In this document: in pieces, positions 6,023-46,327 of the stretch | Layout: every line of letters starts with the position of its first letter | Position numbering within the stretch: position 1 is the stretch's first letter | The notes under the pieces: generated by a model | Told to the model about the DNA's origin: nothing | Database searches by the model: none | What the model saw: only the letters and a program-made list of their open reading frames with translations | Origin: Salinibacterium sp. SWN167 | GTDB lineage: Bacteria > Actinomycetota > Actinomycetes > Actinomycetales > Microbacteriaceae | Direction: 5' to 3' | Length of the DNA stretch: 64,000 nucleotides | Assembly: GCF_015864665.1 (NCBI RefSeq) | Contig: NZ_JADYWU010000002.1 | Span: 62,001-126,000 of the forward strand | Position numbers and translations under genes: made by a program

Positions 6023-6694
6023 CTACGTTGCGAGTGTCGCGAACTTTTCGATGTCGACGGAGTTGCCGCTGACGATCACGAGGTCGTGGTTCGAGATCAC
6101 CGTCTCGGGGGTTGCGTAGGTAAATTCCTTGCCGGGCGACTTCACTCCGACCACCGTGATGCCGTACTTGCGGCGCACTTGCGACTCACTCAGCGGGAGC
6201 CCGCGGATGGGCTTCGGCGGATACATCTTCACGATGGCGAAGTCATCATCGAACTCGATGAAGTCGATCATCCGGCCCGAAACCAGGTGAGCAACGCGCT
6301 CGCCGGCTTCTGCCTCGGGGTAGATCACGTGGTTGGCGCCGATGCGGTTGAGGATTTTGCCGTGGGAGCGGCTGATCGCTTTCGCCCAGATTTGCGGAAT
6401 CTTGAGGTCAACGAGGTTGGCCGTGATGAGCACGCTGGCTTCGATCGACGAGCCGACAGCCACGACGGCGATCGAGAAGTCTTGCGCGCCGATCTGCTGG
6501 AGAGCGTCGAGGCTGCGAGCGTCCGTCTGCACGGCGTGAGTGACGCGTTCCGACCATTTTTGTACGAGGCTGAGGTCAGCATCGATCGCTAAAACTTCGC
6601 GGTCGAGGCGCTGAAGCTGACCGGCAGTGGCCGCACCGAAGCGACCGAGCCCGATTACTAGCACCGGGGCATTGTGGGCGATCTTGTCAACCAA
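6023..6694 (-). CDS. ktrA: Potassium channel regulatory RCK subunit, KtrA/TrkA type
   Basis: 223 residues from a TTG at 6694. The TTG overlaps the KtrB stop codon and has GAGAGG seven bases upstream; this gives the normal KtrA length of about 220, whereas the longest frame adds 57 implausible residues. GLGRFG (15-20) is the nucleotide-binding Rossmann motif, with Asp-containing VLAIDAD closing it. A TrkA-C domain occupies the last 80 residues. The cytoplasmic octameric ring gates the KtrB channel in response to ATP/ADP; TrkA-C domains in Gram-positives can bind c-di-AMP. Confidence 0.88.
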   Translation of the reverse strand: MVDKIAHNAPVLVIGLGRFGAATAGQLQRLDREVLAIDADLSLVQKWSERVTHAVQTDARSLDALQQIGAQDFSIAVVAVGSSIEASVLITANLVDLKIPQIWAKAISRSHGKILNRIGANHVIYPEAEAGERVAHLVSGRMIDFIEFDDDFAIVKMYPPKPIRGLPLSESQVRRKYGITVVGVKSPGKEFTYATPETVISNHDLVIVSGNSVDIEKFATLAT

Positions 6695-8126
6695 CGATGG
6701 GCCTCTCTTCTGCTCTCGTGAACAATTGACGGCGCTGACTGGCCGCAAGGGCTGCCGCCAGCGTAACCGTTCCCACTCGTCCAGCCCACATTGTGGCGGC
6801 GAGGATGTACTTGCCGCCGTCGGGCAGCGTTTCGGTGAGCCCCGTAGAGAGCCCACACGTGGCAAAGGCCGAAATCACGTCAAAAAGCACCCTGTCGAGG
6901 GGCTCCTTGGTTATCTGCAAGATGGCGATGGTCGATATGGCGACGATCGTTGCGCCCCACAGCGTGACGCTGACGGCGAGGCGAAGTACGTCGGTGGGGA
7001 TACGACGCTCGAAGGCGTGCATGTCGTTGTCACCGCGAGCTTCCGCAAGGGCAGCCAAGAACAGCACAGCGAGAGTCGTGACTTTGATGCCACCCGCGGT
7101 GGAGGCAGAGCCGCCGCCCACAAACATCAGCATGTCGAAGACGAGCAGCGTCGACCCATTCAGCTCATTGATGTCGATGGTGGAGAACCCACCCGAGCGT
7201 GTCATGGTCGATAAGAAAGTGGATGTCAGGGGGCGCGAGATCAGGCTTTGCCCACCGATGGTGTTGGTGTTGTTCCATTCCAGAATGAGCACTGCTAGTG
7301 CCCCGAGGAAGATCAGCAGCACCGTCGTGAAGAGGGTGAGGCGTGCGTGAACCGAGAGGCGGGCGCCGTCTTTGAGGTTGCGGACTACAGCGAAGATCAC
7401 GGGGAAGCCGAGGCTTCCTAGGAACACACCGACGCCAATCGCGCCGAGCATCCAAGGATCTTGAGCGAAGGCTTCCATGCCACTGACCGCCGGCACAAAA
7501 CCGGTGTTTGTGAAGGCCGATGCCGCGAAGTAGAAGCCCTGCCAAATGGCGGGCCACACGTCGAAACCTTCCACAAGCAGGCGCGGGATGATCACGAGCG
7601 AGAGCACGACCTCGATGGCCAGCGCGCTGATGGCTACGGTCGCGAGGAGCCCACCAATTTCGCCAAGACGAATAGCTTGGGATTCAGAAACAGGGCCGAC
7701 GTGGATGCGCGAGGGGTTCGAGTCGCTCGCGGCGATGAGTCGTTGGCGCAGCCCGAGGCGGCGCGACACGACGAGGCCCAGCATGCTGGCCAGAGTGAGC
7801 ACGCCGATTCCGCCGACTTGCAGACCGATGAGGATCGCGGAGTTGCCGAAGGCTGACCAGTGCGTCGACATGTCGACGGTGGTGAGGCCGGTCACGCAGA
7901 TGGCGGAGACGGCGGTGAAGAGTGCATCCACGAGGGGGGTGGCTTGGCCATCCCGAGCCGATATGGGCAACACGAGAATGGTCGTGAGCACCACAACGAG
8001 CGCCGAGAAGATGGCGATAGCGAAGCGCGCGGGAGTCGCAGCGGCGAAACGATCGATCACATCACGGACGCGGGCGAGGATGCTGCGTTCACGCGGGTGC
8101 GCACGCATAGGTGCCCAAGAGCTCAT
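6687..8126 (-). CDS. ktrB: Potassium uptake transmembrane subunit, KtrB/TrkH type
   Basis: 479 residues from the ATG at 8126, which has GGGGAG nine bases upstream; the longer open frame would run into the divergent regulator gene. Four P-loop-like repeats are recognisable, for example AICVTGLTTVD, ASAFTNTGF, RSGGFSTIDIN and FATCGLSTG, each with the conserved filter glycine. The protein is the K+ channel subunit in the membrane and works with the RCK subunit encoded immediately downstream with overlapping codons. Hydrophobic segments run throughout. Confidence 0.9.
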   Translation of the reverse strand: MSSWAPMRAHPRERSILARVRDVIDRFAAATPARFAIAIFSALVVVLTTILVLPISARDGQATPLVDALFTAVSAICVTGLTTVDMSTHWSAFGNSAILIGLQVGGIGVLTLASMLGLVVSRRLGLRQRLIAASDSNPSRIHVGPVSESQAIRLGEIGGLLATVAISALAIEVVLSLVIIPRLLVEGFDVWPAIWQGFYFAASAFTNTGFVPAVSGMEAFAQDPWMLGAIGVGVFLGSLGFPVIFAVVRNLKDGARLSVHARLTLFTTVLLIFLGALAVLILEWNNTNTIGGQSLISRPLTSTFLSTMTRSGGFSTIDINELNGSTLLVFDMLMFVGGGSASTAGGIKVTTLAVLFLAALAEARGDNDMHAFERRIPTDVLRLAVSVTLWGATIVAISTIAILQITKEPLDRVLFDVISAFATCGLSTGLTETLPDGGKYILAATMWAGRVGTVTLAAALAASQRRQLFTRAEERPIVG

Positions 8127-8178
8127 AAATTTATCTCCCCACGCACAGGAGGCCATGGTACTCCTCAGAAACGCCCGG

Positions 8179-8184
8179 TACCCT
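8179..8184 (+). promoter_or_regulatory. -10 element of the winged-helix regulator gene (leaderless register)
   Basis: TACCCT ends 7 nt before the ATG at 8191. No Shine-Dalgarno sequence precedes this ATG. Confidence 0.5.
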
Positions 8185-8190
8185 ATTGCA

Positions 8191-8673
8191 ATGGCCGACA
8201 TCTTTGACGTAGTAGCCGATTCAACGCGGCGTAGCCTTCTGACCGTGCTGCTTGAGCAGTACATCGCCTCTGATTCTCCGAGCGGCGAGCTGAGCGTAAG
8301 TGAGATTGTCGAAAAACTCGATTTGAGTCAGCCGACGGTCTCCAAGCACCTGAAGGTGCTGCGCGATCACGGGTTGGTGTCGGTGCGTGAAGACGGCCAA
8401 CACCGCTATTACCGCCTCGATTCTTCTCCTCTTGAAGAGATTGAAGACTGGCTGATCCCGTTCTTGAGCGCGGACTTCCAAGAAGACTTTGACGAGGAGC
8501 TGCTCGCCTCGACCGGCGCTTTCTCGGCCTGGTCGGGAGCAGATGTCGGAGACAACTTGGGCCGCCAGGTTGCGGATCGCGCCTACCGGGCTCGCACCGC
8601 GCTGCACGACGTCGCGGAGGCTGCAAAGCACCTGCCGAGCAGCGTTCGCTCTCGCATCTTCCGCAAGGATTAA
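8191..8673 (+). CDS. ArsR-type winged-helix transcriptional regulator
   Basis: 160 residues. Residues about 1-90 form an ArsR-type winged helix: ADIFDVVADSTRRSLL, then the recognition helix region LDLSQPTVSKHLKVLRDHGLV and the wing EDGQHRYYRLD. No ArsR-family metal ligand pattern (CxC) is seen. The C-terminal 70 residues are acidic then helical and unassigned. The ATG at 8191 is chosen because upstream sequence encodes KtrB on the other strand and because of the exact -10 spacing. It is divergent from ktrB and may control it, which is inference. Confidence 0.8.
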   Translation: MADIFDVVADSTRRSLLTVLLEQYIASDSPSGELSVSEIVEKLDLSQPTVSKHLKVLRDHGLVSVREDGQHRYYRLDSSPLEEIEDWLIPFLSADFQEDFDEELLASTGAFSAWSGADVGDNLGRQVADRAYRARTALHDVAEAAKHLPSSVRSRIFRKD

Positions 8674-8680
8674 GCGGGAG

Positions 8681-8695
8681 GCGCGCCGGGCGCGC
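8681..8695 (+). terminator. GC-rich hairpin after the winged-helix regulator
   Basis: GCGCGC, loop CGG, GCGCGC begins 8 bases after the stop codon. No U-run follows, so termination is uncertain. Confidence 0.35.
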
Positions 8696-8823
8696 ACCTT
8701 GAGGGGTGGACAGCGAGTCACACCAGCCCCTATTGTTACCGTTTAGCACTTCAGTCACATGCTGGGTGCTTTGTGCAGTCGTTTCGTGCGTTCTGCAGTT
8801 GGTGAAACTAAGGGGCTGGTCCG

Positions 8824-9018
8824 ATGTCACGGGATCTATCTGAGATGCGTTTTCTCACCGTCGCTGAGGTGGCGGACATGATGCGCGTCTCAAACATGAC
8901 CGTGTATCGTCTGGTTCACTCCGGTGAACTCCCGGCTGTTCGTTTTGGCCGTTCATTCCGCATCCCGGAATCGGCTGTAGCGAGCGCCGTTGCACCCCCA
9001 ATCTCTGAGGTTGGATAG
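8824..9018 (+). CDS. Small MerR/BldC-like DNA-binding protein
   Basis: 64 residues, almost entirely a MerR-superfamily helix-turn-helix: FLTVAEVADMMRVSNMTVYR then LVHSGELPAVRFGRSFRIPE, the pattern of BldC and of excisionase-fold proteins. Actinobacterial BldC binds DNA as head-to-tail oligomers on direct repeats and controls development. This gene is not next to a mobile element, so a chromosomal regulator is more likely than an excisionase. The ATG at 8824 follows AAGGGGC; an alternative ATG lies at 8845. The 150 bases upstream hold only the preceding hairpin and presumably its promoter. Confidence 0.8.
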   Translation: MSRDLSEMRFLTVAEVADMMRVSNMTVYRLVHSGELPAVRFGRSFRIPESAVASAVAPPISEVG

Positions 9019-9081
9019 CGGCGAATCGTCGCTGAGGGTTCATTCCCAGTTCATCGAGACTTTTAAACCCGCCCGGTGCGG

Positions 9082-9087
9082 TAAACT
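9082..9087 (+). promoter_or_regulatory. -10 element upstream of the bS22 leader ORF
   Basis: TAAACT predicts a start at 9094, two bases before the leader ATG at 9096. Confidence 0.5.
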
Positions 9088-9095
9088 CTTCCGGT

Positions 9096-9149
9096 ATGTC
9101 TTTCCGCGGTTCTGAATCGGACCGGGTCGGTTCGTTCAGAAATCAGTGA
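9096..9149 (+). CDS. 17-residue leader ORF upstream of bS22
   Basis: ATG at 9096, 17 codons (MSFRGSESDRVGSFRNQ) and TGA at 9147-9149. The stop overlaps the GTGAGG ribosome site of bS22, whose ATG is 7 nt further on. A TTCTGAA/TTCAGAA inverted repeat (9110-9116 and 9135-9141) inside the ORF could fold. Translation is not shown; the fit of promoter, start and stop to the bS22 signals is the argument for a leader peptide. Confidence 0.45.
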   Translation: MSFRGSESDRVGSFRNQ

Positions 9150-9156
9150 GGTTCCT

Positions 9157-9255
9157 ATGGGTTCAGTCATCAAAAAGCGTCGCAAGCGTATGGCAAAGAA
9201 GAAGCACCGCAAGCTGCTTCGTAAGACACGCCACCAGCGTCGCAACAAGAAGTAA
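9157..9255 (+). CDS. Small ribosomal subunit protein bS22 (AURKAIP1/COX24 domain)
   Basis: 32 residues, extremely basic, beginning MGSVIKKRRKRMAKKKHRK. This is nearly identical in pattern to the actinobacterial bS22 protein found in mycobacterial ribosome structures, about 33 residues and bound near the decoding centre of the 30S subunit, and to the C-terminal domain of mitochondrial AURKAIP1. GTGAGG precedes the ATG at a normal distance. The gene is too short for most ORF callers. It is preceded by a 17-codon ORF and followed by strong hairpins. Confidence 0.93.
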   Translation: MGSVIKKRRKRMAKKKHRKLLRKTRHQRRNKK

Positions 9256-9275
9256 CTAGTCCCAATGACTAGGGG

Positions 9276-9337
9276 CCGTCTTCCGAGACGGTCACAACTC
9301 GAACACCCGAACGTTCATCTGAACGATCGGGTGTTCG
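9276..9337. terminator. Tandem hairpins between convergent bS22 and HAD genes
   Basis: First hairpin: CCGTCT-TCCG-AGACGG (9276-9291). Second: an 11-bp perfect stem (9300-9310 with 9327-9337), then after an A/A mismatch a further 6-bp stem CGTTCA/TGAACG around a TC loop. Neither has a U-run, but the location between convergent genes fits a two-way terminator. Confidence 0.7.
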
Positions 9338-9340
9338 GCG

Positions 9341-10105
9341 TTAACGAGCGTTTTTGCGCACAATCTTGGCTTGCTGCTTCACGCGGCGCCGGGCTTCTTT
9401 GAGGCCGGCGCGGCTGAGCGGCAGTACTGGCCAGCCCATTTTTTGGGCATAGTGGGTGAGTTTCACATCCGCGTTCACGGCCACACGATTGCCTACGGCG
9501 CTCAGTAGCGGGATGTCGTTGCTGGAATCGGAGTATGCCCAGCAGTCTGCCAGGTTGGCCCCGAGCCGCCCAGCGAGCTCTGTGGCGACGGCAGCCTTCT
9601 CTGGCCCGTGAAGCACGTGGCCGTCGAGTTCTCCCGTGAGAAAGCCGTCTTCGGCGCGCACGCGGGTTCCGAGCGCGCCCGTAAGGCCGAGTCGCTCGGC
9701 GATCACTTGCGCCACAAACTGGGGCGTTGCGGTGATGAGCCACACTTCGTGGCCCTTCGCGAGGTGCTCTTTGGCCAGATCGACGGTTTCGGGCCACAGG
9801 TTGGGCAGAATGTCTCGCTCGTAGATGGTCTCGGCGAGATCGATGAGCGTCTGCAGGGAATGTCCGCCCACGATCTCAAGCGCCCGTTCCCGCGCGGAGG
9901 TCATGTGCTTGTGGTTTTCTCCCACAGCGACGAACCGAAACTGGTGCCAGGCAAAGCGAGCAATATCTCGCCAGCCCACGATTCCGCGCCGCCAGGCTTC
10001 CTTGCTCAAATAGAAAGCACTCGCACCACGCATGAGCGTGTTGTCCACGTCAAAGAAAGCCACAACGGCGTTCTGGCTGGGCGGGGGCGACGTTACCTCG
10101 TGCAT
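9341..10105 (-). CDS. HAD-IB family phosphatase (SerB-like)
   Basis: 254 residues from the ATG at 10105. HAD motif I is FFDVDNTL (Asp19 nucleophile, Asp21), motif II is in LITATPQF, and motif III is the distal SDSSNDIPLL. The order and the large helical cap after motif I match subfamily IB, which includes phosphoserine phosphatase and a group of actinobacterial hydrolases fused elsewhere to acyltransferases. The substrate is unknown. The C-terminal tail is Lys/Arg rich. The ATG at 10105 is preferred over that at 10111 because a minus-strand -10 (TAGAAT) predicts transcription from about 10106. Confidence 0.82.
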   Translation of the reverse strand: MHEVTSPPPSQNAVVAFFDVDNTLMRGASAFYLSKEAWRRGIVGWRDIARFAWHQFRFVAVGENHKHMTSARERALEIVGGHSLQTLIDLAETIYERDILPNLWPETVDLAKEHLAKGHEVWLITATPQFVAQVIAERLGLTGALGTRVRAEDGFLTGELDGHVLHGPEKAAVATELAGRLGANLADCWAYSDSSNDIPLLSAVGNRVAVNADVKLTHYAQKMGWPVLPLSRAGLKEARRRVKQQAKIVRKNAR

Positions 10106-38563: not shown

Positions 38564-40188
38564 GCCACGATCACCTGTTCCCACAGCAACCGGGAACCAC
38601 CGGCAACGTTCCGCTCACACGCAAGCAGCTGCGTGAGCTCGAACGTGTGGCCCAACTGGAGGCAAAGCAGAAGCGCGGTTCGAAGCAGCGCGGCACCAAG
38701 CAGTCCGCTGCGACTCAGTCGGTGGAGGCGCCGACTGTTCCCGTGCTCGCTGATCTGTTTACGCCCCACTCGGCAGAGGAGCCTGCAAGCGACCACGTCG
38801 CGGTAGTCGAGCCCGCGCCACCGATCGAGCAGGTAGCAGCCGTCGACGTGATCCGCGTCGTTGAAGCGGCTCGCGTTGAAGAAGCGGCTCGCGTTGAAGA
38901 ATCGGCTCAGGTCGCGGACGTGGCCCTGGTGGCAGAAGCCGCCCCCGTTGTCATAGCAACTCCGGTAGCTGAAGCGACTCCTGTGGTCGAAGCGTCGTTG
39001 CCGAGCAGGCGCTCATTGCGTGCCCAACAGGCACACGCAGCCCCCGCAATTCCTGCGGCACCCGCCACAATGCCAACGTCTGCGCTCGGCACCACTGCAC
39101 CGGCAGCGGGGGCACCAACGGTTTCCGAACGACTCTTTACGGCTCCCATCGCGACGGTGCCAGCATCCGCGGCCGCCGCCGCGTCTGATTCTGTTTCTCA
39201 GGAGGCGTCGGCCGACGAGCCGCTCAGCATCTTCGGCATCACCCCTGATCCCGCTGTCGTTACCCAAGCGGTTTCGGTTTCCCCGGCTGCACATGTCGCA
39301 GACGAGCGTCCGCGCACAAAGTCGGGCAAAGCGGCCAAGAGTGCTCGTGCGCTCAAGCCGGCGAAAGCAGCGAAGGCTGCCACGGCGCCAGCCTCGCGCG
39401 CACCCCGTGGCTCCGCCGTAAAGTCGAAGCGTGTCTGGGTGTCGAGCGCAGCATTCGCGCCCAGTGGAACACCCCGCCGCCGCACGAAAGCCGCGGCATC
39501 CAAAGCCCTGTCGCTCGTCGCCATGCTCTTTGCCGGTGCGATCCTCGTGGGGGTCTCAGTGCCCTCAAATGTGTTCGTCAATGAGAACTCGGTGGCCATA
39601 GCCGCGATCGCCCCTGAGGGGGATCTTGCCGACGTCGGTTCGGCCCGCACCGCCCAATCTCTTGCTGTCTCTGACGATGTGAGCGGCGAGGTCACCGCCC
39701 ACGATGACCTCAAAGTAGTTTCGTCCGCTGAAGTGCTCGCGTTGAAGTACGCCGGTGCGGACTACGAATACATCGCGACCACTGGTGCAGTGCGGTGGCC
39801 GTTCCCGTACGAGGTGCCGATCACAGACGGTTTCGGGTACCGCGCGAGTGGATTCCACAAGGGAACAGACTTTGCGGCCGCATCCGGTACGCCCATCTAC
39901 GCAATCGCCGACGGCACTGTCGATCTCATCCAGGCCGACTGGTCGGGCTACGGCTACCATGCGGTAATCAGCCACGTGATCAATGGTCAGCAGGTTGAAA
40001 GCCTCTACGCCCACATGATCACCGACTCCAGCCCCCTCGTGGTTGGGCAACAGATTAGCGCCGGCGATTTCATCGGACTTGTCGGCGAAACTGGCATTGC
40101 CTATGGCGCACATCTGCACTTCGAAGTACACCTCGATGGTGTTCCCGTTGACCCATATGCGTGGCTCACAGTGAATGCTGTCGACTAA
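38560..40188 (+). CDS. M23 family peptidoglycan endopeptidase with long N-terminal linker
   Basis: 542 residues from ATG 38560. The first 45 residues (LTRKQLRELERVAQLEAKQK) are charged; a Val/Ala/Glu-rich low-complexity part follows with repeated VEEAAR units, encoded by an 18-bp tandem repeat near 38864-38911. One membrane helix (SLVAMLFAGAILVGVSVPSN) near residue 350 anchors it, and the extracellular C-terminus is an M23 LytM domain with HKGTDFAAASGTP and HLHFEV, supplying the zinc ligands. It probably trims cell-wall cross-links. A GTG start at 38476 would add 28 residues. Confidence 0.85.
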   Translation: MSHDHLFPQQPGTTGNVPLTRKQLRELERVAQLEAKQKRGSKQRGTKQSAATQSVEAPTVPVLADLFTPHSAEEPASDHVAVVEPAPPIEQVAAVDVIRVVEAARVEEAARVEESAQVADVALVAEAAPVVIATPVAEATPVVEASLPSRRSLRAQQAHAAPAIPAAPATMPTSALGTTAPAAGAPTVSERLFTAPIATVPASAAAAASDSVSQEASADEPLSIFGITPDPAVVTQAVSVSPAAHVADERPRTKSGKAAKSARALKPAKAAKAATAPASRAPRGSAVKSKRVWVSSAAFAPSGTPRRRTKAAASKALSLVAMLFAGAILVGVSVPSNVFVNENSVAIAAIAPEGDLADVGSARTAQSLAVSDDVSGEVTAHDDLKVVSSAEVLALKYAGADYEYIATTGAVRWPFPYEVPITDGFGYRASGFHKGTDFAAASGTPIYAIADGTVDLIQADWSGYGYHAVISHVINGQQVESLYAHMITDSSPLVVGQQISAGDFIGLVGETGIAYGAHLHFEVHLDGVPVDPYAWLTVNAVD

Positions 40189-40245
40189 TATTCTTGAAGG
40201 GTCGATTTTGGCCCGAAAGCGTACTGAGAGGCCCTAAACGGGTGC

Positions 40246-40259
40246 TAGTCTCTTACGGT
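40246..40259 (+). promoter_or_regulatory. Candidate -10 elements of the tRNA-Thr/tRNA-Met unit
   Basis: TAGTCT (40246-40251) and TACGGT (40254-40259) both lie 29-42 bases before tRNA-Thr. Which is used cannot be decided. Confidence 0.3.
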
Positions 40260-40287
40260 GCCAATTGCGCGTTCAGCGCTTTTGTGT

Positions 40288-40359
<72 letters not shown>

Positions 40360-40384
40360 CGCTTATCCAGTAATTGGATGATGC

Positions 40385-40458
40385 GGCTGAGTAGCTCAGT
40401 TGGTGAGAGCGCACGACTCATAATCGTGAGGTCGCGGGTTCGAATCCCGCCTCAGCTA
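40385..40458 (+). tRNA. tRNA-Met (anticodon CAT, elongator type)
   Basis: Acceptor GGCTGAG pairs with CTCAGCT (first pair G-U). Loop CTCATAA gives CAT, T-arm GCGGGTTCGAATCCCGC. The first base pair and arm sequences match elongator, not initiator, tRNA-Met. The 3' half from 40417 is also the left attachment site of the integrated element; the tRNA remains complete. Confidence 0.95.
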
Positions 40459-40462
40459 CAAC
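40417..40462 (+). repeat. attL core: 3' half of tRNA-Met
   Basis: 46 bases identical to 44336-44381; with one mismatch the identity extends five bases further left (40412). It runs from the anticodon loop through the 3' end plus four bases. Confidence 0.93.
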
Positions 40463-41460
40463 TAAAGATGCCCGAGAATCCGCAGATTTGCCGCGTTCTC
40501 ACCCCCTCGAAATGTGACCTCACGATTCGAGGGGTTCATCTTCTCTCGCACTGCTAGTGCTGCATCCGTTGACGACGAGCGCGTATAAAGCTCGGTAGTC
40601 GTGATGGACGCGTGACCAGCTACGCGCTGGATGTTCTGGGGCGAGTTTCCCGCCCGCGCGAGCCGCGTCAGGAACGTGTGCCTGAGGTCATGGAACCGAA
40701 GCTCGCGCCCGTCAGAGAAGGTCGCGATCTGTTCGCGAATCTGTGGCCACTTCACGGCCCGTGAAAGGTTTCCACTATCGAACGGTCCGCCGCGCACGCC
40801 CGTGAAAACATGGTCGAATCCGGCTTCCTGTGCCTGCTCGAGCCACGGCAGCAGTTCATTGAGGATTGGCACGCTTCGGATGTGCCCGCTCTTTGTGGGG
40901 CGAATCTCGAGCTTGCCGCTGCCGTTGGGGGAGTACGTCCGGCGAACCGTAATGAGGCCTTGTTCGGCGTCAATGTCCTCCCAGCGCAGCCCAACAAGTT
41001 CCCCTAGGCGCAGGCCGGTGAAGGCAAGCCCGGCGAGCGAGCGTTGCCCGAACGGGTGGAAGTCTGCGAGCGTGAGCATTCGTGCGACCTGAACGTCGCT
41101 CAGTGCGCGGCTCACGGGGTCGGCATCGTGAGCCTTGCCGCGTGATGCACGGAGCGACTTGCAGGGGTTCGCGAGAATGAGGCCTTCCATCACGGCGAGG
41201 CCCAGTAGACGGGAGAGCAGTGCGAGCGCGTCCTGTTTTGTGGAGGCGCTGCCACTCCACGAGGCGCGAGCGCGAGAGATGGTGAGCGGCGTCAGTCTGT
41301 CGAGCGCCAATCCGCCAAGGGACGGTTCAACGCGCAGTCGCCAAGCACGGGAGTACGCCGCGACAGCGTTAGAGACAAGTTCCTCTGCCACGACGGAGTG
41401 AAACTCGTCGTAGAAGTCGGTAAGCGTCACCGGGGTGCGCTTGTTGGCGGGAAGTCTCAT
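40462..41460 (-). CDS. int: Tyrosine recombinase (integrase)
   Basis: 332 residues. An N-terminal SAM-like DNA-binding domain (about 10-105) precedes the catalytic domain with R151 (FTGLRLGELVGLRW), K190, H257 and R260 (FHDLRHTFLTRL), H283 (GHASITTTELY) and nucleophile Y292. It recombines attP with the tRNA-Met attB. The TAG stop begins in the last base of attL, so the core abuts the coding region. TAGTCT (41472-41467) lies in exact leaderless register with the start ATG and is embedded in inverted repeats. Confidence 0.93.
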   Translation of the reverse strand: MRLPANKRTPVTLTDFYDEFHSVVAEELVSNAVAAYSRAWRLRVEPSLGGLALDRLTPLTISRARASWSGSASTKQDALALLSRLLGLAVMEGLILANPCKSLRASRGKAHDADPVSRALSDVQVARMLTLADFHPFGQRSLAGLAFTGLRLGELVGLRWEDIDAEQGLITVRRTYSPNGSGKLEIRPTKSGHIRSVPILNELLPWLEQAQEAGFDHVFTGVRGGPFDSGNLSRAVKWPQIREQIATFSDGRELRFHDLRHTFLTRLARAGNSPQNIQRVAGHASITTTELYTRSSSTDAALAVREKMNPSNREVTFRGGENAANLRILGHL

Positions 41461-41493
41461 AGTGTGAGACTACGACACTAGGCGCGGCTAGTG
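41460..41493. promoter_or_regulatory. Integrase promoter/operator with inverted repeats
   Basis: TAGTGT (41460-41465) pairs with ACACTA (41475-41480), and CACTAG (41476-41481) with CTAGTG (41488-41493). The -10 hexamer TAGTCT (minus strand 41472-41467) sits inside the first repeat, so a bound repressor would block the integrase promoter. Confidence 0.6.
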
Positions 41494-41506
41494 CAACATT
41501 GTGGGA

Positions 41507-41899
41507 CTAGCTTTTATTCTGACGTTCTCCCATGCCCTTGAGAAACGCCTCCACGTCTACTTCGATGCCGGGGAATTCGTAGACGTCGGGATGCTCTCCA
41601 AACGCAGCACGGAACTGCGAGATGCGCCGGTAGACGCTTGACCTGCTCATGCCGAGGTTCTCCTGCATGCCCTCAAAGCCGCCGACGAGTCGCCAGAGAA
41701 TCCAGAAGCCGAAGAGATCGAACATGGTCGAGTTGATGTAGCCACGCATGAGCGTCTTGATGCCGGGAAATGCGGCAAGAAGAGGTTTGTTCACCGTCTG
41801 ATTCGCTGAATGGTAGGAGTCCCAAGCCGTCTCGAGGGCGCTCCTTGCTCGGCCTTCACCTTCGGGTGATGGCATGCGATCAGCTCTGAAATCAGCCAC
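41507..41899 (-). CDS. HTH-domain protein of the integrative element
   Basis: 130 residues. The middle holds a probable helix-turn-helix, GGFEGMQENLGMSRSSVYRR, followed by ISQFRAAFGEHPDVYEFPG. The N-terminal 45 residues are Ser/Arg rich, and no known domain family is recognised. GTG start with GGAGA 11 bases upstream. It lies directly upstream of int on the same strand and next to the operator repeats, so it is the natural candidate for the element's repressor or directionality factor. The 72-bp divergent gap to the TIR gene shares AGACTACG with the int operator. Confidence 0.7.
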   Translation of the reverse strand: MADFRADRMPSPEGEGRARSALETAWDSYHSANQTVNKPLLAAFPGIKTLMRGYINSTMFDLFGFWILWRLVGGFEGMQENLGMSRSSVYRRISQFRAAFGEHPDVYEFPGIEVDVEAFLKGMGERQNKS

Positions 41900-41971
41900 T
41901 TCGTATCGTCTCCTAGTTTCGTATTCCGCGACTACAAGACTACGGCCAACGACCGTCAGGGGCTATCTCTA

Positions 41972-42904
41972 ATGGTTCTCCCGAAATCTTCTATACAAGA
42001 TCAAGACGCAAGCGATTCTGGAGATAACCTCTCACGTATGAAGATTTTCGTCAGTTGGTCAAAACCTCTTAGCCAATCAATCGCAGAGTCCTTCGGTGCT
42101 TGGGTGCCGAAAGTGATACAAGAGTGCCGTGACCCGTACGTATCGAGTGACACAGACAAGGGTGAGGCGTGGTTTCAAACCATCACCACGCAGTTGAGGG
42201 AATCGAAAGTCGGCATAGTCTTCATCACGCCACAAAATGTGAGGGAAGAGTGGATACACCTCGAGTCGGGAGCAATTTATGCCGCGTTGGACAAGCGGCT
42301 TTGTCCAATCCTCGTAGGTCTGAAGAAGACTGATTATGACGGGCCGCTCAGAAACATTCAGATGACCGAACTCGACGACAAGCCCGACATGCTGAAGCTG
42401 ATGAAGACGCTTAACAAGAACTGCGACACACCTCTTGACGACGCCGTACTTGAAGACTCTTTCGATAGGTGGTGGCCAGACCTCGAGACAGCCGTGGCGC
42501 AAGCATTCGCCGATAACCCAGAGACAGCACCTGTTTCCACGCGTAGTGAAGCCGAAAAAATCGACGAGATTCTCTTGATGGTGAGGAATCTGAATGTGCG
42601 GGTTTCCGGCGCGGGGGAATCAGCTCCAGATGGCGACTCGAAACGCGATGCGAAGTCCATCAGCAACGACCGACGACTCCGAGAAGAGCGAGACGAACAG
42701 GACATGGCAGAGTTCATAGCTACCCAACGCGGAAAATTTGTCTTAGAAAACGGTGAAGTCATAGGAAGGGTGGTCAGGGTACGAAAACGGGGGGATGATT
42801 TTAGGGTTCAAGTGCGATCCTTGCGGAACAGTGATTCAGAGGACTCTCCCGCGTCGTGGGTGGCGAGTGCCTCAGAACTTGAGCTCTCGGAAGTACCCTT
42901 CTAG
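41972..42904 (+). CDS. TIR-domain protein, possible NAD-cleaving defence effector
   Basis: 310 residues. Residues 23-130 form a bacterial TIR domain: MKIFVSWSKP, PYVSSDTDKGEAW, GIVFITPQN and WIHLESGAIY, where Glu98 is at the position of the catalytic glutamate of TIR NADases. Residues 180-245 are a charged linker; 250-310 look like a small beta-rich domain (GKFVLENGEVIGRVVRV). No membrane segment. Codon usage looks more AT-rich than the chromosome. The start at 41972 follows AGGGG; the alternative ATG 42038 begins right at the TIR domain. The partner or trigger is unknown. Confidence 0.8.
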   Translation: MVLPKSSIQDQDASDSGDNLSRMKIFVSWSKPLSQSIAESFGAWVPKVIQECRDPYVSSDTDKGEAWFQTITTQLRESKVGIVFITPQNVREEWIHLESGAIYAALDKRLCPILVGLKKTDYDGPLRNIQMTELDDKPDMLKLMKTLNKNCDTPLDDAVLEDSFDRWWPDLETAVAQAFADNPETAPVSTRSEAEKIDEILLMVRNLNVRVSGAGESAPDGDSKRDAKSISNDRRLREERDEQDMAEFIATQRGKFVLENGEVIGRVVRVRKRGDDFRVQVRSLRNSDSEDSPASWVASASELELSEVPF

Positions 42905-43088
42905 CTGCCGCCCTACGCGCTTCGCGCTACGGTTGCCCTTGGATTCGCGGTTGGCTCCCCAGCGTGGCCGGGTTGATGGCCCGGCGTGCAGGCAGGTGGC
43001 CGTGCGGGGCCGTGCGTTCGCCCCTCCGGGGCTGCCACGCACGACACCCGCCCAGCCCGCCACCTTCATGGCCGGCTACATCCACCAG
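42905..43088. other. GC-rich non-coding stretch, candidate replication origin
   Basis: Between the TIR stop and the CxxC protein stop. It holds a GCCGGG/CCCGGC hairpin (42967-42985), a CGCGC/GCGCG hairpin near 42917-42928 and several GC-rich repeats. A 65-codon minus-strand frame crosses it but has no ribosome site. The place, downstream of rep, fits a rolling-circle double-strand origin; the nick site is not identified. Confidence 0.35.
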
Positions 43089-43214
43089 TCAGACGCAGTA
43101 AGCGCACAACTCGCGTCCAAACGCATCACGCCCGCGATCAATCGTGGGGTTGCCGCACTCGTCGCAAGCTAGAAGTCCCATAAGGGCACACATCTCACAA
43201 TTTGGCTTTGCCAT
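43089..43214 (-). CDS. 41-residue three-CxxC protein (zinc-ribbon-like)
   Basis: Starts MAKPNCEMCALMG at ATG 43214 with GGAGG eight bases upstream, an excellent ribosome site. It has three CxxC pairs, CEMC (6-9), CDEC (17-20) and CAYC (37-40), so it should bind one or two zinc ions. It begins 21 bases after the rep stop, so it is co-transcribed. Similar tiny cysteine proteins accompany actinobacterial plasmid rep genes; no function is assigned. Confidence 0.7.
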   Translation of the reverse strand: MAKPNCEMCALMGLLACDECGNPTIDRGRDAFGRELCAYCV

Positions 43215-43235
43215 AGTCATCACCTCCCTTCCCGC

Positions 43236-44309
43236 TCACGGAACCGCCGCCGCGCACGGGGCAAGTTCTCGCCGGACACGCAGCGAGCGGCCCTCGACGG
43301 CCTCGACCTTCTCCGCTGGATGCGCCGCAGCTGCCGATGCTTCGACGTTCGCTAGAAACCACTCGAGCCGCAGCCGACGCTGCACCGTGCGAGTCAGGCC
43401 AGTGAACGACCAGCCGGGGCGGCGCTTTGTGCGGCGGGACGCGCTCACCACTTGAGAGCGCGCGCCGTAACGTTCGTGCACGCGCCCACGGCAGAACTCA
43501 GGTTCGCAGTCGGGCGCGCAGCGCATGGCCCGTGCTGCATGCTCGAGCGCGAGCAAATGCGACCAGACACGAGGGTGGACGGTTTCGCCCTGGTGGACGA
43601 CATCCTTCATGACATAGTTCAGCGCTTTGGAGAGATACCAGATCGTTTTCGCGCCGTCACCGTCAGCCCGGAACGCGTCACACTTCGCTTGTGCGCCCCA
43701 CTCAACTCGCGCGCCGTCGATCTTGGAGAAAGCGACAGCGGAGCGCGCAGCGTCACGGAGTACGGCAGCGTCGGGAGCTTCAGAGCGTTCGATGCGCACC
43801 AGTACGTGAACGTGCAGCACGCCCCGGTCTTGCCACTCCCGCACGATGAAGTACTCCACCGAGTCCCAGCGATCCCGCAGCCGCCGCCGCGTGCGATCCC
43901 ACAGCAGGCCCGCGTCACGGTTCCAAGCAGCCTGCCCCGCGTAGTCATAACTCGACGGGCGAAGCGGCACACCGCGCAAGCCCGCATCCTGCACCAAGTG
44001 CTGCACGCCACAACCGCACACCGGCGCGGCTTTCGTCTCGCTACGCGGTACGCGGTGAACGGCACCGAAAGAAGGAGCGGTCAGGGTCAACAGGTAGAAG
44101 CGGTAGTTCTGTACTGGCCCGTCGAAAACGCCGGAACGAGCGATGGATGCCCAGTCGCCCCGGTACAGTTCCGCGCACGAGCCGCAGCTGCTCTTGATGC
44201 GAGAACCGCAGCGCACCCAGATGCCCGTGGAGGTCTTGATGGGGCGCACGCAGCCGCGCGCGATAACCTCAGCTGCGCCGGTTTCGGTGGTGGAAGTGTC
44301 TGCTCGCAT
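43236..44309 (-). CDS. rep: Rolling-circle replication initiator, RepSA-like HUH protein
   Basis: 357 residues. Cysteines 34, 42 and 45 (VRCGSRIKSSCGSC) form the N-terminal metal-binding signature of actinobacterial plasmid initiators. YLLTLTAPSFG (motif 1), the metal-binding HUH pair VLHVHV (His166, His168) and the tyrosine motif WYLSKALNYVMKD (Tyr225, Tyr232) follow in order. It nicks the element's origin to start rolling-circle replication. The start ATG is only 26 bases from attR, with no ribosome site seen; in the excised circle int would lie directly upstream. Confidence 0.88.
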   Translation of the reverse strand: MRADTSTTETGAAEVIARGCVRPIKTSTGIWVRCGSRIKSSCGSCAELYRGDWASIARSGVFDGPVQNYRFYLLTLTAPSFGAVHRVPRSETKAAPVCGCGVQHLVQDAGLRGVPLRPSSYDYAGQAAWNRDAGLLWDRTRRRLRDRWDSVEYFIVREWQDRGVLHVHVLVRIERSEAPDAAVLRDAARSAVAFSKIDGARVEWGAQAKCDAFRADGDGAKTIWYLSKALNYVMKDVVHQGETVHPRVWSHLLALEHAARAMRCAPDCEPEFCRGRVHERYGARSQVVSASRRTKRRPGWSFTGLTRTVQRRLRLEWFLANVEASAAAAHPAEKVEAVEGRSLRVRRELAPCAAAVP

Positions 44310-44335
44310 AACGAGCGGCTACAACGGATACACGT

Positions 44336-44381
44336 CTCATAATCGTGAGGTCGCGGGTTCGAATCCCGCCTCAGCTACAAC
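44336..44381 (+). repeat. attR core: copy of the tRNA-Met 3' half
   Basis: 46 bases identical to 40417-40462. It lacks the tRNA 5' half, so it is not a functional gene. Confidence 0.93.
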
Positions 44382-44386
44382 CGAGG

Positions 44387-44408
44387 CCCCCGGAATTCCG
44401 GGGGTTTT
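44387..44408 (+). terminator. Intrinsic terminator, originally of the tRNA-Met unit
   Basis: CCCCCGGAATTCCGGGGG (44387-44404) is a perfect palindrome followed by TTTT. It lies six bases past attR, so before integration it would have terminated the tRNA transcript. Confidence 0.85.
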
Positions 44409-44434
44409 GCAGTTAAGCGGTGGTGGAGAAATCT

Positions 44435-44452
44435 CCCCCGTTAGCTCATCGG
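44435..44452 (+). other. tRNA 5'-arm-like fragment
   Basis: CCCCCGTTAGCTCATCGG resembles the first 18 bases of tRNA-Thr at 40288 but no matching anticodon or T arm follows. The rest of 44409-44635 shows nothing recognisable apart from the GNAT ribosome site. Confidence 0.3.
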
Positions 44453-44635
44453 CGAAGGAGTACGAATACGATTCTTCGTGATGTTTGCCATTACTCCCTG
44501 TAATTGCGAACAGGGCAGCACAATGGCGTTTTGCAGGTTATCGCGCAAACCGGTGCTGTTAGGTTAAACGTCAGTACACAATTCAATCGGACGCGTGGTC
44601 TCGCGACCGCGAAACGTCAACCGAGGTCGATGACT

Positions 44636-45205
44636 ATGTTCGGCATCACACGTCCACGACTGATGCGTGGAGCTTCACTTCCTGTTCCGGTGGAAGCCCC
44701 GATCATCCACACAGAACGGCTCACGCTGCGCCCCTTCTCGATGGCCGACAGCGGCCGCTGGTTCGAGATCCAATCTGACCCTCAAGTGCGGGCATTCACC
44801 TCGTGGCCGGAGCGGAATCGTGAAGAATCCCGCCGCCACCTCAAGAACCGAACACACCATGTGCTGCTGAAGCAGGCAGACGACTTTCTGGCGCTGGCCG
44901 TCGAACACGATGGCATCCTGATCGGTGATGTTTCCCTGCACCTCAGGTCTGTCGAAACAGTCACTCGCTCGGCTGAAATTAGTTGGATTCTGCACCCAGA
45001 CTCCCAGGGGCATGGTTACGCGTTTGAGGCCGCCCGAGCGATGCTGGAGCTGGCATTTACGCGCCTCGAAGCCCGAGTGATTTTCGCGCTCGTGCACCCC
45101 ACAAACACCGCGTCAATGGCTCTGGCGCAGAAGCTCGGGTTCACGCCATTCGATGGCAGCGATGGCGAAATAATCTTCGTCTCTACAGGCCTGCTGGCTC
45201 AATAA
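44636..45205 (+). CDS. GNAT-family N-acetyltransferase (RimJ/RimL type)
   Basis: 189 residues from ATG 44636, which has GAGGT at the best distance; earlier in-frame starts lack one. PIIHTERLTLRPFSMADSGR is the Acetyltransf_3 opening, SWILHPDSQGHGYAFEAARA carries the acetyl-CoA loop (QGxGxA variant) and NTASMALAQKLGF is the final motif. The substrate could be a ribosomal protein N-terminus or a small molecule. It is about half identical by eye to the protein at 45764. Confidence 0.85.
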   Translation: MFGITRPRLMRGASLPVPVEAPIIHTERLTLRPFSMADSGRWFEIQSDPQVRAFTSWPERNREESRRHLKNRTHHVLLKQADDFLALAVEHDGILIGDVSLHLRSVETVTRSAEISWILHPDSQGHGYAFEAARAMLELAFTRLEARVIFALVHPTNTASMALAQKLGFTPFDGSDGEIIFVSTGLLAQ

Positions 45206-45243
45206 CGCACGGCGGCAATGACGCTGCGGGCAGCGTGATCGCC

Positions 45244-45249
45244 TACTCT
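45244..45249 (+). promoter_or_regulatory. -10 element of the LysR-HTH gene
   Basis: TACTCT predicts +1 at 45256, one base before the ATG at 45257. Confidence 0.4.
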
Positions 45250-45256
45250 GAGGGTA

Positions 45257-45604
45257 ATGGATCCTTCCCTGCTCAGACAGTTCGTCGCCGCTGGGCGACT
45301 CCTCCACTTTGCCCACGCGGCTCGAGAATGTGGTGTGCCACGCTCGAGCCTGATTGCGGCCGTTAGATCTCTGGAAGCACAGCTCGGTTATGAGCTGTTT
45401 GATAACACCGCGAGTACGACCCAACTCACGCCGAAAGGCGAAGCGTATCTTCTTGACGCCGAGAGGCAATTAGAGAAGTCCGCGAAATCAGCGGCACAGT
45501 CCGTCGCAAAACCCGGTGGCAAAGCGAAGGCATCCAAGGGCAGAGGTCGGGCACCCGCAGCCAAGGGCAAGTCGACGCCTGGCCGCCGACGCCAAGCGCG
45601 GTAG
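45257..45604 (+). CDS. LysR-type HTH domain with basic tail, no effector domain
   Basis: 115 residues. Residues 1-70 are a normal LysR winged helix (LLRQFVAAGRLLHFAHAARE then LEAQLGYELFDN and LTPKGEAYLLDAERQL). In place of the 200-residue sensing domain is a 40-residue Lys/Ala/Gly/Arg tail ending GKSTPGRRRQAR. This looks like a histone-H1-like or AT-hook-like tail, so it may be a nucleoid-associated protein rather than a ligand-controlled activator. The stop is clean and no remnant of a longer gene is seen. Confidence 0.75.
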   Translation: MDPSLLRQFVAAGRLLHFAHAARECGVPRSSLIAAVRSLEAQLGYELFDNTASTTQLTPKGEAYLLDAERQLEKSAKSAAQSVAKPGGKAKASKGRGRAPAAKGKSTPGRRRQAR

Positions 45605-45763
45605 TCACCCGCGCTCTGTGCTCGACGCTGAAGCGCATCCGGCGTAATTTACCTCCTGCTTACAGGAGCGGAACCCCGCGACCGAATAGTGTCAGCCGTT
45701 GTGTCAGACTGCTGCGAACACCATGATTGGCACGCTCGACGGATACATCGGTTCGGTAGGTTC

Positions 45764-46327
45764 ATGCCCAGAAGTGATGCTCGGCCCACGCTCGGATCGC
45801 CTCTGCGCGTGCCGATCATCCATACCGATCGCTTGCTGCTGCGACCGCATCGGTTGGCAGACGCCGAACGGTGGCACGAAATCCAATCGAGCCCGCACGT
45901 GCGCCAGTACACGACGTGGCCGCAGCGTACCGTGCGATCGTCCTTGCGGCAGCTGAAATTGAGAACACGGCAAACGCAGATGCGCCGCGTGGATGACGTG
46001 CTGGCGTTGGCCATTGAACACGACGGCGAGCTGGTGGGCGAGATCACCCTGCAGCTGCGGTCGCTCACAGCCGCTGCGCGGTGTCTCGAGGTGAGCTGGA
46101 TTGTTCATCCCGCGTATCAGGGCCAAGGAATCGCGTACGAAGCGATGCGTCCCCTTCTCGCCTATATGAGAACCACGATTGAGGCCTTACTGCTCGTGGC
46201 GGTCGTGCACCCCGCCAATGCTGCTTCGGTTGCGCTCGCTCACAAACTGCACCTTCACCCTTTGCCGGGCACTGCGGATCGCACGGTGTTTGTCGGCAGA
46301 AATGGGCCGCTCGCCGCGCTGCCGTAA
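45764..46327 (+). CDS. GNAT-family N-acetyltransferase (second paralogue)
   Basis: 187 residues from ATG 45764. PIIHTDRLLLRPHRLADAER and SWIVHPAYQGQGIAYEAMRP match the GNAT motifs and the neighbour at 44636 line by line, indicating an old tandem duplication with the LysR-HTH gene in between. The earlier frame start at 45689 adds 25 atypical residues. The ribosome site is weak (GGTAGG). The 159 bases before it hold a CTCCTG/CAGGAG hairpin (45653-45668). Confidence 0.82.
   Translation: MPRSDARPTLGSPLRVPIIHTDRLLLRPHRLADAERWHEIQSSPHVRQYTTWPQRTVRSSLRQLKLRTRQTQMRRVDDVLALAIEHDGELVGEITLQLRSLTAAARCLEVSWIVHPAYQGQGIAYEAMRPLLAYMRTTIEALLLVAVVHPANAASVALAHKLHLHPLPGTADRTVFVGRNGPLAALP

Follow-up and report, generated by a model that had tools for sequence, protein, structure and literature searches.

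The element and its insertion site

We analysed a 64,000-nucleotide stretch of DNA from Salinibacterium sp. SWN167 (the window), in which a 3.9-kb element is inserted in the 3′ end of a tRNA-Met(CAT) gene, between att direct repeats. The cargo is a TIR-domain protein, which an earlier reading of the sequence alone (the original prediction) had taken for a lone-TIR defence or addiction module borne by a minimal integrative element. The target tRNA gene was called by ARAGORN at 40385–40459 on the plus strand, and its 3′ part lies within the left repeat, attL (40412–40462), which is identical at 50 of 51 positions to the right repeat, attR (44331–44381). Because the lone mismatch is at 40416, the exact core is 46 bp from 40417, the same repeat that had been predicted. 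In a genome of the same genus (G197), the left flank (39500–40462) corresponds to locus bases 75–1040 and the right flank (44331–45300) to bases 990–1960. Both flanks thus join and overlap at one att copy; the site is therefore empty there, and the element is a real insertion. The tRNA-Thr/tRNA-Met site is present in 21/21 same-genus genomes searched, with a second att copy nearby in G000, G316 and G372; G781 and G782 have one as well, of lower identity.

The left end is occupied by the predicted tyrosine integrase gene (int, 40462–41460, minus strand; Phage_integrase, E 1.3e-25), whose stop codon touches attL. Upstream of int, in the position of a xis or regulator gene, a small helix-turn-helix (HTH)-like protein is encoded at 41507–41899 on the minus strand. 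Its HTH matches are all sub-threshold, but it has relatives in 6 other of 398 genomes of the bacterial family. A match to an Acidipropionibacterium plasmid was uninformative, and a structure predicted without an alignment was poor (predicted local distance difference test, pLDDT, 52) and was not used. At the right end, starting about 22 bp inside attR, lies a rolling-circle initiator gene (rep, 43236–44309, minus strand); the HUH Rep that had been predicted was confirmed and is specifically RepSA/pSAM2-like (PF20199, E 8.9e-34). The catalytic residues of both enzymes are kept: the R, HxLRH and Y of Int, as read by eye from the translation, and the HUH residues H166 and H168 and tyrosines Y225 and Y232 of Rep, read by eye and invariant in a 12-row alignment. 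Downstream of rep, a 41-aa zinc-ribbon open reading frame (ORF; 43089–43214 with its stop, minus strand) is conserved, C6, C9, C17, C20 and C37 being the same in all 7 rows. The element had been described as AT-richer than the chromosome. This is true of the TIR gene (52.0% GC) and the HTH gene (56.7%), but the element as a whole barely differs from the window (60.3% vs 61.8%), and int (62.5%) and rep (66.2%) do not follow.

The TIR protein

The TIR frame on the plus strand is open for 310 aa from 41972, the length originally given to the protein. Residues 1–22, however, overlap a 26-bp box common to sister elements with different cargo, and a Met-Lys-x-Phe motif forms the start of most relatives. 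The likely start is therefore Met23 at 42038, and the protein probably has 288 aa (42038–42904); we rejected a 310-aa form with a meaningful N-terminal extension. The protein matches Pfam TIR_2 over its cutoff (7.3e-7), the PADLOC model TIR-TM over residues 23–202 (2.7e-49) and phrog_13899, of unassigned function, over residues 23–283 (2.2e-51). The TIR-TM model may derive from TIR proteins of the phage AC1 type, we presume; membrane anchoring was rejected despite its name, as a hydrophobic stretch was found, at the threshold of our script, in 0/142 TIRs.

A phmmer search of PDB chains gave no match up to E 1. The AlphaFold2 model (63-row alignment, mean pLDDT 81.3) shows a TIR fold, with ten-residue blocks of the domain at 87–98, mostly above 90, except for two at 78–80. 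With this model, Foldseek returned 30 PDB chains at E ≤1e-3, which are by title TIR-containing proteins or complexes (for 8fex, the title names just a short-Argonaute system). They include SPARTA TIR-APAZ, the SpbK filament 9phb_A (TM-score by target 0.68), TIRs of plant nucleotide-binding leucine-rich repeat receptors, TIR-STING, AbTir, BtTir and PdTIR; the best match is SPARTA TIR-APAZ, followed by SpbK, both defence TIRs. Structure prediction and Pfam thus agree with the TIR fold first proposed.

Glu98 (codon 42263–42265; E76 of the trimmed protein) is the predicted catalytic glutamate of helix alphaC. It is invariant in 17/17 sequences and in the 63-row alignment; the profile of the latter matches AbTir across the WxxxE motif (E 0.0016), which puts Glu98 on the catalytic Glu of AbTir. 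The placing of a glutamate at the NADase position is thus supported. An NADase activity of the window protein would be in keeping with this. W94, E98 and G100 have the spacing of the active-site residues Y188 and E192 and the interface residue G194 of SpbK (PMC12847820). SpbK of ICEBs1, whose trigger is YonE (PMC12847820, PMC11984713), is likewise a single TIR protein on an integrative element. However, its TIR domain is C-terminal and preceded by an N-terminal sensor, whereas that of the window protein is N-terminal, and the likeness is one of fold only.

Beyond the TIR domain, helices are modelled at pLDDT 56–88, a C-terminal beta region at 52–71 and the last eight residues below 50. The beta-rich C-terminal domain of the original prediction thus stands as a small beta domain of modest confidence, but helices are present too, as is a disordered tip, which had gone unmentioned. 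The hypervariability of this region suggests a sensor.

A C-terminal tip resembling that of single-stranded DNA-binding proteins

The window protein ends in SEVPF (42887–42901), as does its closest relative, from Microbacterium oxydans BEL4b, while the preceding tail of the latter is much less alike. Single-stranded DNA-binding proteins (SSBs) end similarly: one of the two host SSBs in DETPF and the other in AVTPF. Such tips dock SSB-binding proteins.

We counted the pattern [DE].?[ILVAMP]PF among TIR relatives from the IMG/VR viral and GTDB genome contigs, 80 of each being kept. After removal of near-duplicates the tip was found in 14/76 genome-contig relatives, in 1/65 viral-contig relatives and in 1/2,291 other ORFs of the fetched loci, this last being an SSB; before removal the counts were 14/80 and 1/80. 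Among the genome-contig tips are DDDIPF, NEDIPF, DDDDMPF and DEEVPF. Fisher p-values are 5e-21 against the background and 9e-4 against the virus-borne set, both made optimistic by shared ancestry. The 80 genome matches are the best 80 of 450, hence those closest to the query, and the family as a whole may have another rate; the tip as a feature of the whole TIR family was rejected on the virus-borne count. Two plasmid-borne relatives, L015 and L018, carry it too, the former, on Acidithiobacillus pGT2, ending in EDEDDLPF. This 14-kb plasmid has three annotated TIR-protein genes within about 4 kb (6043–10068), that relative being one of them. A full-text literature search gave no paper with all the terms used for TIR and SSB. 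As a concrete hypothesis, such a tip could be the means by which some lone TIRs detect infection.

Relatives of the TIR protein

The M. oxydans protein is 59% identical from Met23 onwards, tip included, and Abi_C, Vsr and C5-methylase genes follow it in a defence island. TIR relatives were encoded in 450/503 GTDB contigs and in 116/119 candidate IMG/VR stretches, the latter against 0/24 with a single-sequence query. Only 5 of 50,697 phage records carry one: the lambdoid mEp390 (twice), the P2-like AC1 (twice) and one unannotated record. In mEp390 the gene sits between Q and the holins; other relatives also lie in phages or prophages, and some of those in phages are at extra-gene positions. Plasmids carry a relative in 11 of 72,556 cases, among them a 4.7-kb mobilizable Serratia plasmid and a cyanobacterial plasmid on which it adjoins type III-B cas genes. 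Matches were also found in 20/394 genomes of the class, several of them weak. The copy in G186 lies near prim-pol-like and terminase-like ORFs, judged by eye, and in another genus (G166) a relative at 8330–9418 of its locus is 85 bp from a tRNA-Met gene.

Within the bacterial family the count is 11/398 genomes, the window's own included. One of these matches, in G033, covers only residues 212–297 and was judged spurious. This rarity, 10/398 beyond the own genome, together with an AT-richness that marks the gene as a probable recent arrival, could mean that the TIR is a passenger or a decaying gene without present function. We regard this as highly improbable, for the 288-aa frame is intact, the motif residues are invariant, and the M. 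oxydans copy is 59% identical, tip included.

The relative with a tested role is that of AC1, which is 37.8% identical to the window protein over the domain (E 6e-27). An AC1 lysogen and three cloned AC1 genes protect Escherichia coli C against lambda and LF82_P8, and membrane-protein partners accompany the TIR (PMC9122126). The AC1 locus thus resembles the window element in its homologous N-terminal TIR and in being mobile-element cargo, and phage protection has been shown for it. It differs by its two membrane partners, none being recognised beside the window TIR, and by its C-terminal region. A search of 178 sequences, among which were short contigs, matched AC1-type partners in just three, AC1 itself and two AC1-like loci. 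TIRs without such partners are therefore the rule, and a family-wide partnership was rejected. The AC1 partner genes had no match in 39001–46000 of the window. A PADLOC scan of the other four element ORFs gave a single match, to another model (E 0.06), and none to ThsA, so that, within the element, the predicted lack of a ThsA partner was upheld; Thoeris differs in having this effector beside its TIR.

These results bear on whether the TIR could be a signal maker, as in Thoeris or AC1, whose cyclic ADP-ribose activates a host-encoded effector without itself depleting NAD+. For AC1, its authors suggested a messenger that targets the associated membrane proteins (PMC9122126), and SpbK produces both ADP-ribose and N1-cyclic ADP-ribose. 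However, no partner was recognised in the 3.9-kb element, AC1 partners went unmatched in 175/178 sequences, short contigs included, and an element that hops between hosts cannot rely on a chromosomal effector. We therefore hold this alternative to be unlikely.

A family of elements without a transfer gene

Rep relatives were found in 28/398 family genomes. We fetched 20 Rep regions and later added one further element (L294, from G781). A layout is repeated among them: a tRNA gene (Met or Phe), int, an HTH or other gene, cargo, the zinc-ribbon ORF, rep and att. Parts vary, the HTH gene being present in 8/14 elements and no int being found in L068. Rep starts 16–38 bp inside attR in 14/15 rows with a Rep ORF, and 61 bp inside in the degenerate element L084. 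These starts are the most upstream possible, so that the true gaps may be somewhat larger; in the 12 aligned Reps the conserved sequence begins within about 25 codons. At the other end, the int stop lies −10 to +6 bp from the attL end in 11/12 rows with an Int ORF, and at +53 in L078.

Little space is thus left inside the integrated element for a usual rep promoter, and in an excised circle rep would follow hth, int and att, all four reading the same way. On these two grounds we infer that rep may be switched on by excision; an outside or unusual promoter could serve instead. A promoter scan found none against 1.1 expected, which is not informative for actinobacteria. Just outside attR, at 44384–44410, a GC-rich palindrome with a short T run was seen by eye and was not listed by the scan tool; it is perhaps the native tRNA terminator and might insulate rep from outside transcription. 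In L072 (G315), pieces of hth and int at 7329–8049, right beyond the far att (8422), would fit a tandem integration of two elements followed by the decay of one.

Actinomycete integrative and conjugative elements (AICEs) such as pSAM2 (PMC3218068) share with the window element a tyrosine integrase, a tRNA target, RepSA and the order att-rep-…-int-att. No FtsK-like Tra matched in the five element ORFs scanned, and the 3.9 kb hold no other plausible long gene. Without an FtsK/SpoIIIE Tra, the element is therefore AICE-derived but not an AICE; its family also differs in its size (3–9 kb) and exchangeable cargo. In pSAM2, rep, xis and int form an operon (PMC3218068), whereas here rep is just inside att, away from int. 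Defective AICEs that retain traB have been described (PMC9513070), the opposite of the window element. The family thus consists of pSAM2-type elements that lack Tra and occupy tRNA-Met or tRNA-Phe, and it is apparently undescribed: among the matches listed, no title concerned RepSA elements that have defence cargo but no Tra, most subscription papers being outside that search.

As to how such elements travel, the element DNA had no match among plasmids, and Rep relatives were absent both from viral contigs, with a single query or the 12-row alignment, and from phage records at E 1e-5. With no Tra, element-like plasmid or viral Rep relative found, transfer would need a helper or another route. 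The search gave no evidence of packaging or transfer. The original prediction had called the element satellite-size; a satellite nature is not supported, as no link to a helper phage was seen.

A shared box and putative origin

The 26-bp box was first noticed between hth and cargo in 6/8 aligned elements. In the window it lies at 41980–42005, and the minus strand reads CTTGATCTTGTATAGAAGATTTCGGG. When at most 2 mismatches were allowed, 383 family genomes gave 14 matches, one each in 14 genomes; a reversed-pattern control gave 0. Each of the 14 genomes has a Rep match, with the box at most 5.2 kb away. The box is missing from the other 14 Rep-matching genomes, in which the Rep is either a short fragment or no more than 45% identical. 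CTTGATC occurs in 14/14 boxes, partly by construction of the pattern, and in L294 as well. The pC194 nick region reads CTTG/ATAATA on the complementary strand (PMC5037232), and pSAM2 was placed in the pC194 family by its nick site, with Rep motifs that also resemble phiX174 (PMC3218068). Based on this CTTGAT likeness and on the family assignment of pSAM2, the box is probably the rolling-circle double-strand origin, nicked by Rep. A role as cargo promoter was rejected, because this single-copy box begins with CTTGATC, goes together with Rep and has neighbouring genes that may point either way.

The main cargo lies between box and rep in 12/14 elements (window, L069, L070, L072–L079 and L294); the exceptions are L068, with RhuM on the other side, and L071, without clear cargo. 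With a nick at the box, the cargo would therefore be replicated last, the position proposed as the source of qacC movement between plasmids (PMC5037232). Staphylococcal cassettes of double-strand origin, gene and single-strand origin, such as qacC (PMC5037232), likewise have variable cargo beside a rolling-circle origin, on the last-replicated side. In contrast to them, the present elements are chromosomally integrated and often carry defence-type cargo, and a single-strand origin was not identified in them.

The position of the TIR gene beside this putative origin, the occurrence of some relatives on small plasmids, and an SSB-like tip that could tie the protein to single-stranded DNA intermediates would all suit a protein guarding its own element, by killing or excluding recipients of competing AICEs or plasmids, or by addiction, killing cells that lose it. 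Such a guard appears improbable, given that no antitoxin-like partner was recognised, that phage exclusion is the usual role at the extra-gene phage positions of some relatives, and that sister elements manage without a TIR.

Cargo of the sister elements

The cargo was compared in 14 elements (window, L068–L079 and L294), with a PADLOC line at E ≤1e-5 that was set after the results had been seen. Seven of the 14 had a match, against none of ten flanking chromosomal proteins (best 0.0014), which were ORFs picked by a filter on third-position GC (GC3). Besides the window TIR, PADLOC assigned RhuM-Fic PDC-S23 in L068, AIPR/AbiU in L069, a DzbB-like protein in L072 (1.5e-7), an OLD/AriA-like ATPase in L076, HEC-01A+B in L077 and a type II methylase in L078, which also has a Cfr10I/Bse634I nuclease by Pfam. 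L079 has a Mrr nuclease by Pfam, with PADLOC at only 9.6e-5. L068 (G372), of the window's genus, has its RhuM-Fic at the same tRNA-Met site and a Rep that is 97% identical. In G316 (L086), likewise of the window's genus, RhuM-Fic lies in a 1.3-kb att-flanked stretch at the tRNA-Met site with a Rep remnant only, and the far repeat has a second tRNA-Met according to ARAGORN. In G782 (L295, 1506–4963), HipA lies between imperfect att copies at this site, with no recognisable Int or Rep. The element family therefore looks like a shuttle for bacterial immunity genes.

Interpretation

Taken together, our analyses suggest, with a probability of about two in three, that the element is a Tra-less mini-AICE of the pSAM2 type in tRNA-Met whose single exchangeable cassette encodes, in this case, a one-protein TIR NADase that aborts infection. 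The insertion with its empty site, the element family, the invariant Glu98, the modelled fold, the kinship with AC1, the M. oxydans defence island and the defence-type cargo of the sisters all agree with the lone-TIR defence module of the original prediction. In the mechanism that we envisage, the C-terminal helices and variable tail, as the presumed sensor, would keep the TIR domain inactive until a phage-made or replication-linked trigger clusters the domains. Arranged head to tail, so clustered, and with Glu98 as part of a composite active site, the TIRs would then hydrolyse NAD+, and the infected cell would stop growing ahead of phage release.

Several points weigh against this interpretation. 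The NADase and defence role is a prediction from fold, motif and relatives, and in the one tested relative, AC1, the clone included two membrane proteins beside the TIR, which might not suffice by itself. The C-terminal region is poorly modelled. Rolling-circle replication, excision and transfer are predictions, and present-day mobility would follow from them. Moreover, the cargo of L070, L073, L074, L075 and L294 had no PADLOC match at 1e-5, and L071 has no clear cargo, its 104-aa ORF lying outside the PADLOC scan. With 5/14 unmatched, L079 weak and L071 without clear cargo, the slot is not purely defensive. Genes without an assigned role in L070, L073 and L075 also speak against a simple defence slot, as does the S15 hydrolase of L087; this Rep-bearing element comes from a draft genome that is 89% complete with 8% contamination. 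Such unassigned cargo (DUF3467, DUF6941 with a ribbon-helix-helix protein, a sub-threshold DUF6188 match and small membrane proteins) provides candidate new defence genes.

A more far-reaching version of the preferred interpretation would have these Tra-less rolling-circle elements act as a defence-gene shuttle in which cargo is swapped at the origin during replication, rep stays silent until excision joins it behind hth and int, and the SSB-tail mimic ties TIR activation to replication machinery commandeered by phage. As a whole, we put this forward tentatively and consider it doubtful.

Enterobacteria trade immunity via P4-like phage satellites and P2-like hotspots (PMC9122126), which are also small mobile elements with swappable defence genes. 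In the present elements, by contrast, no phage functions and no viral-contig Rep relatives were seen. The element family points to a rolling-circle counterpart of this trade in actinobacteria, where one nuclease family has been reported near AICEs and defence genes (PMC11706625). The TIR itself adds to defence proteins of an already known type; what appears new is the element family, with the probable origin that its members share, and the SSB-like tip. To the right of the element, at 44504–46327, two adjacent ORFs are alike by eye, both being acetyltransferase-like.

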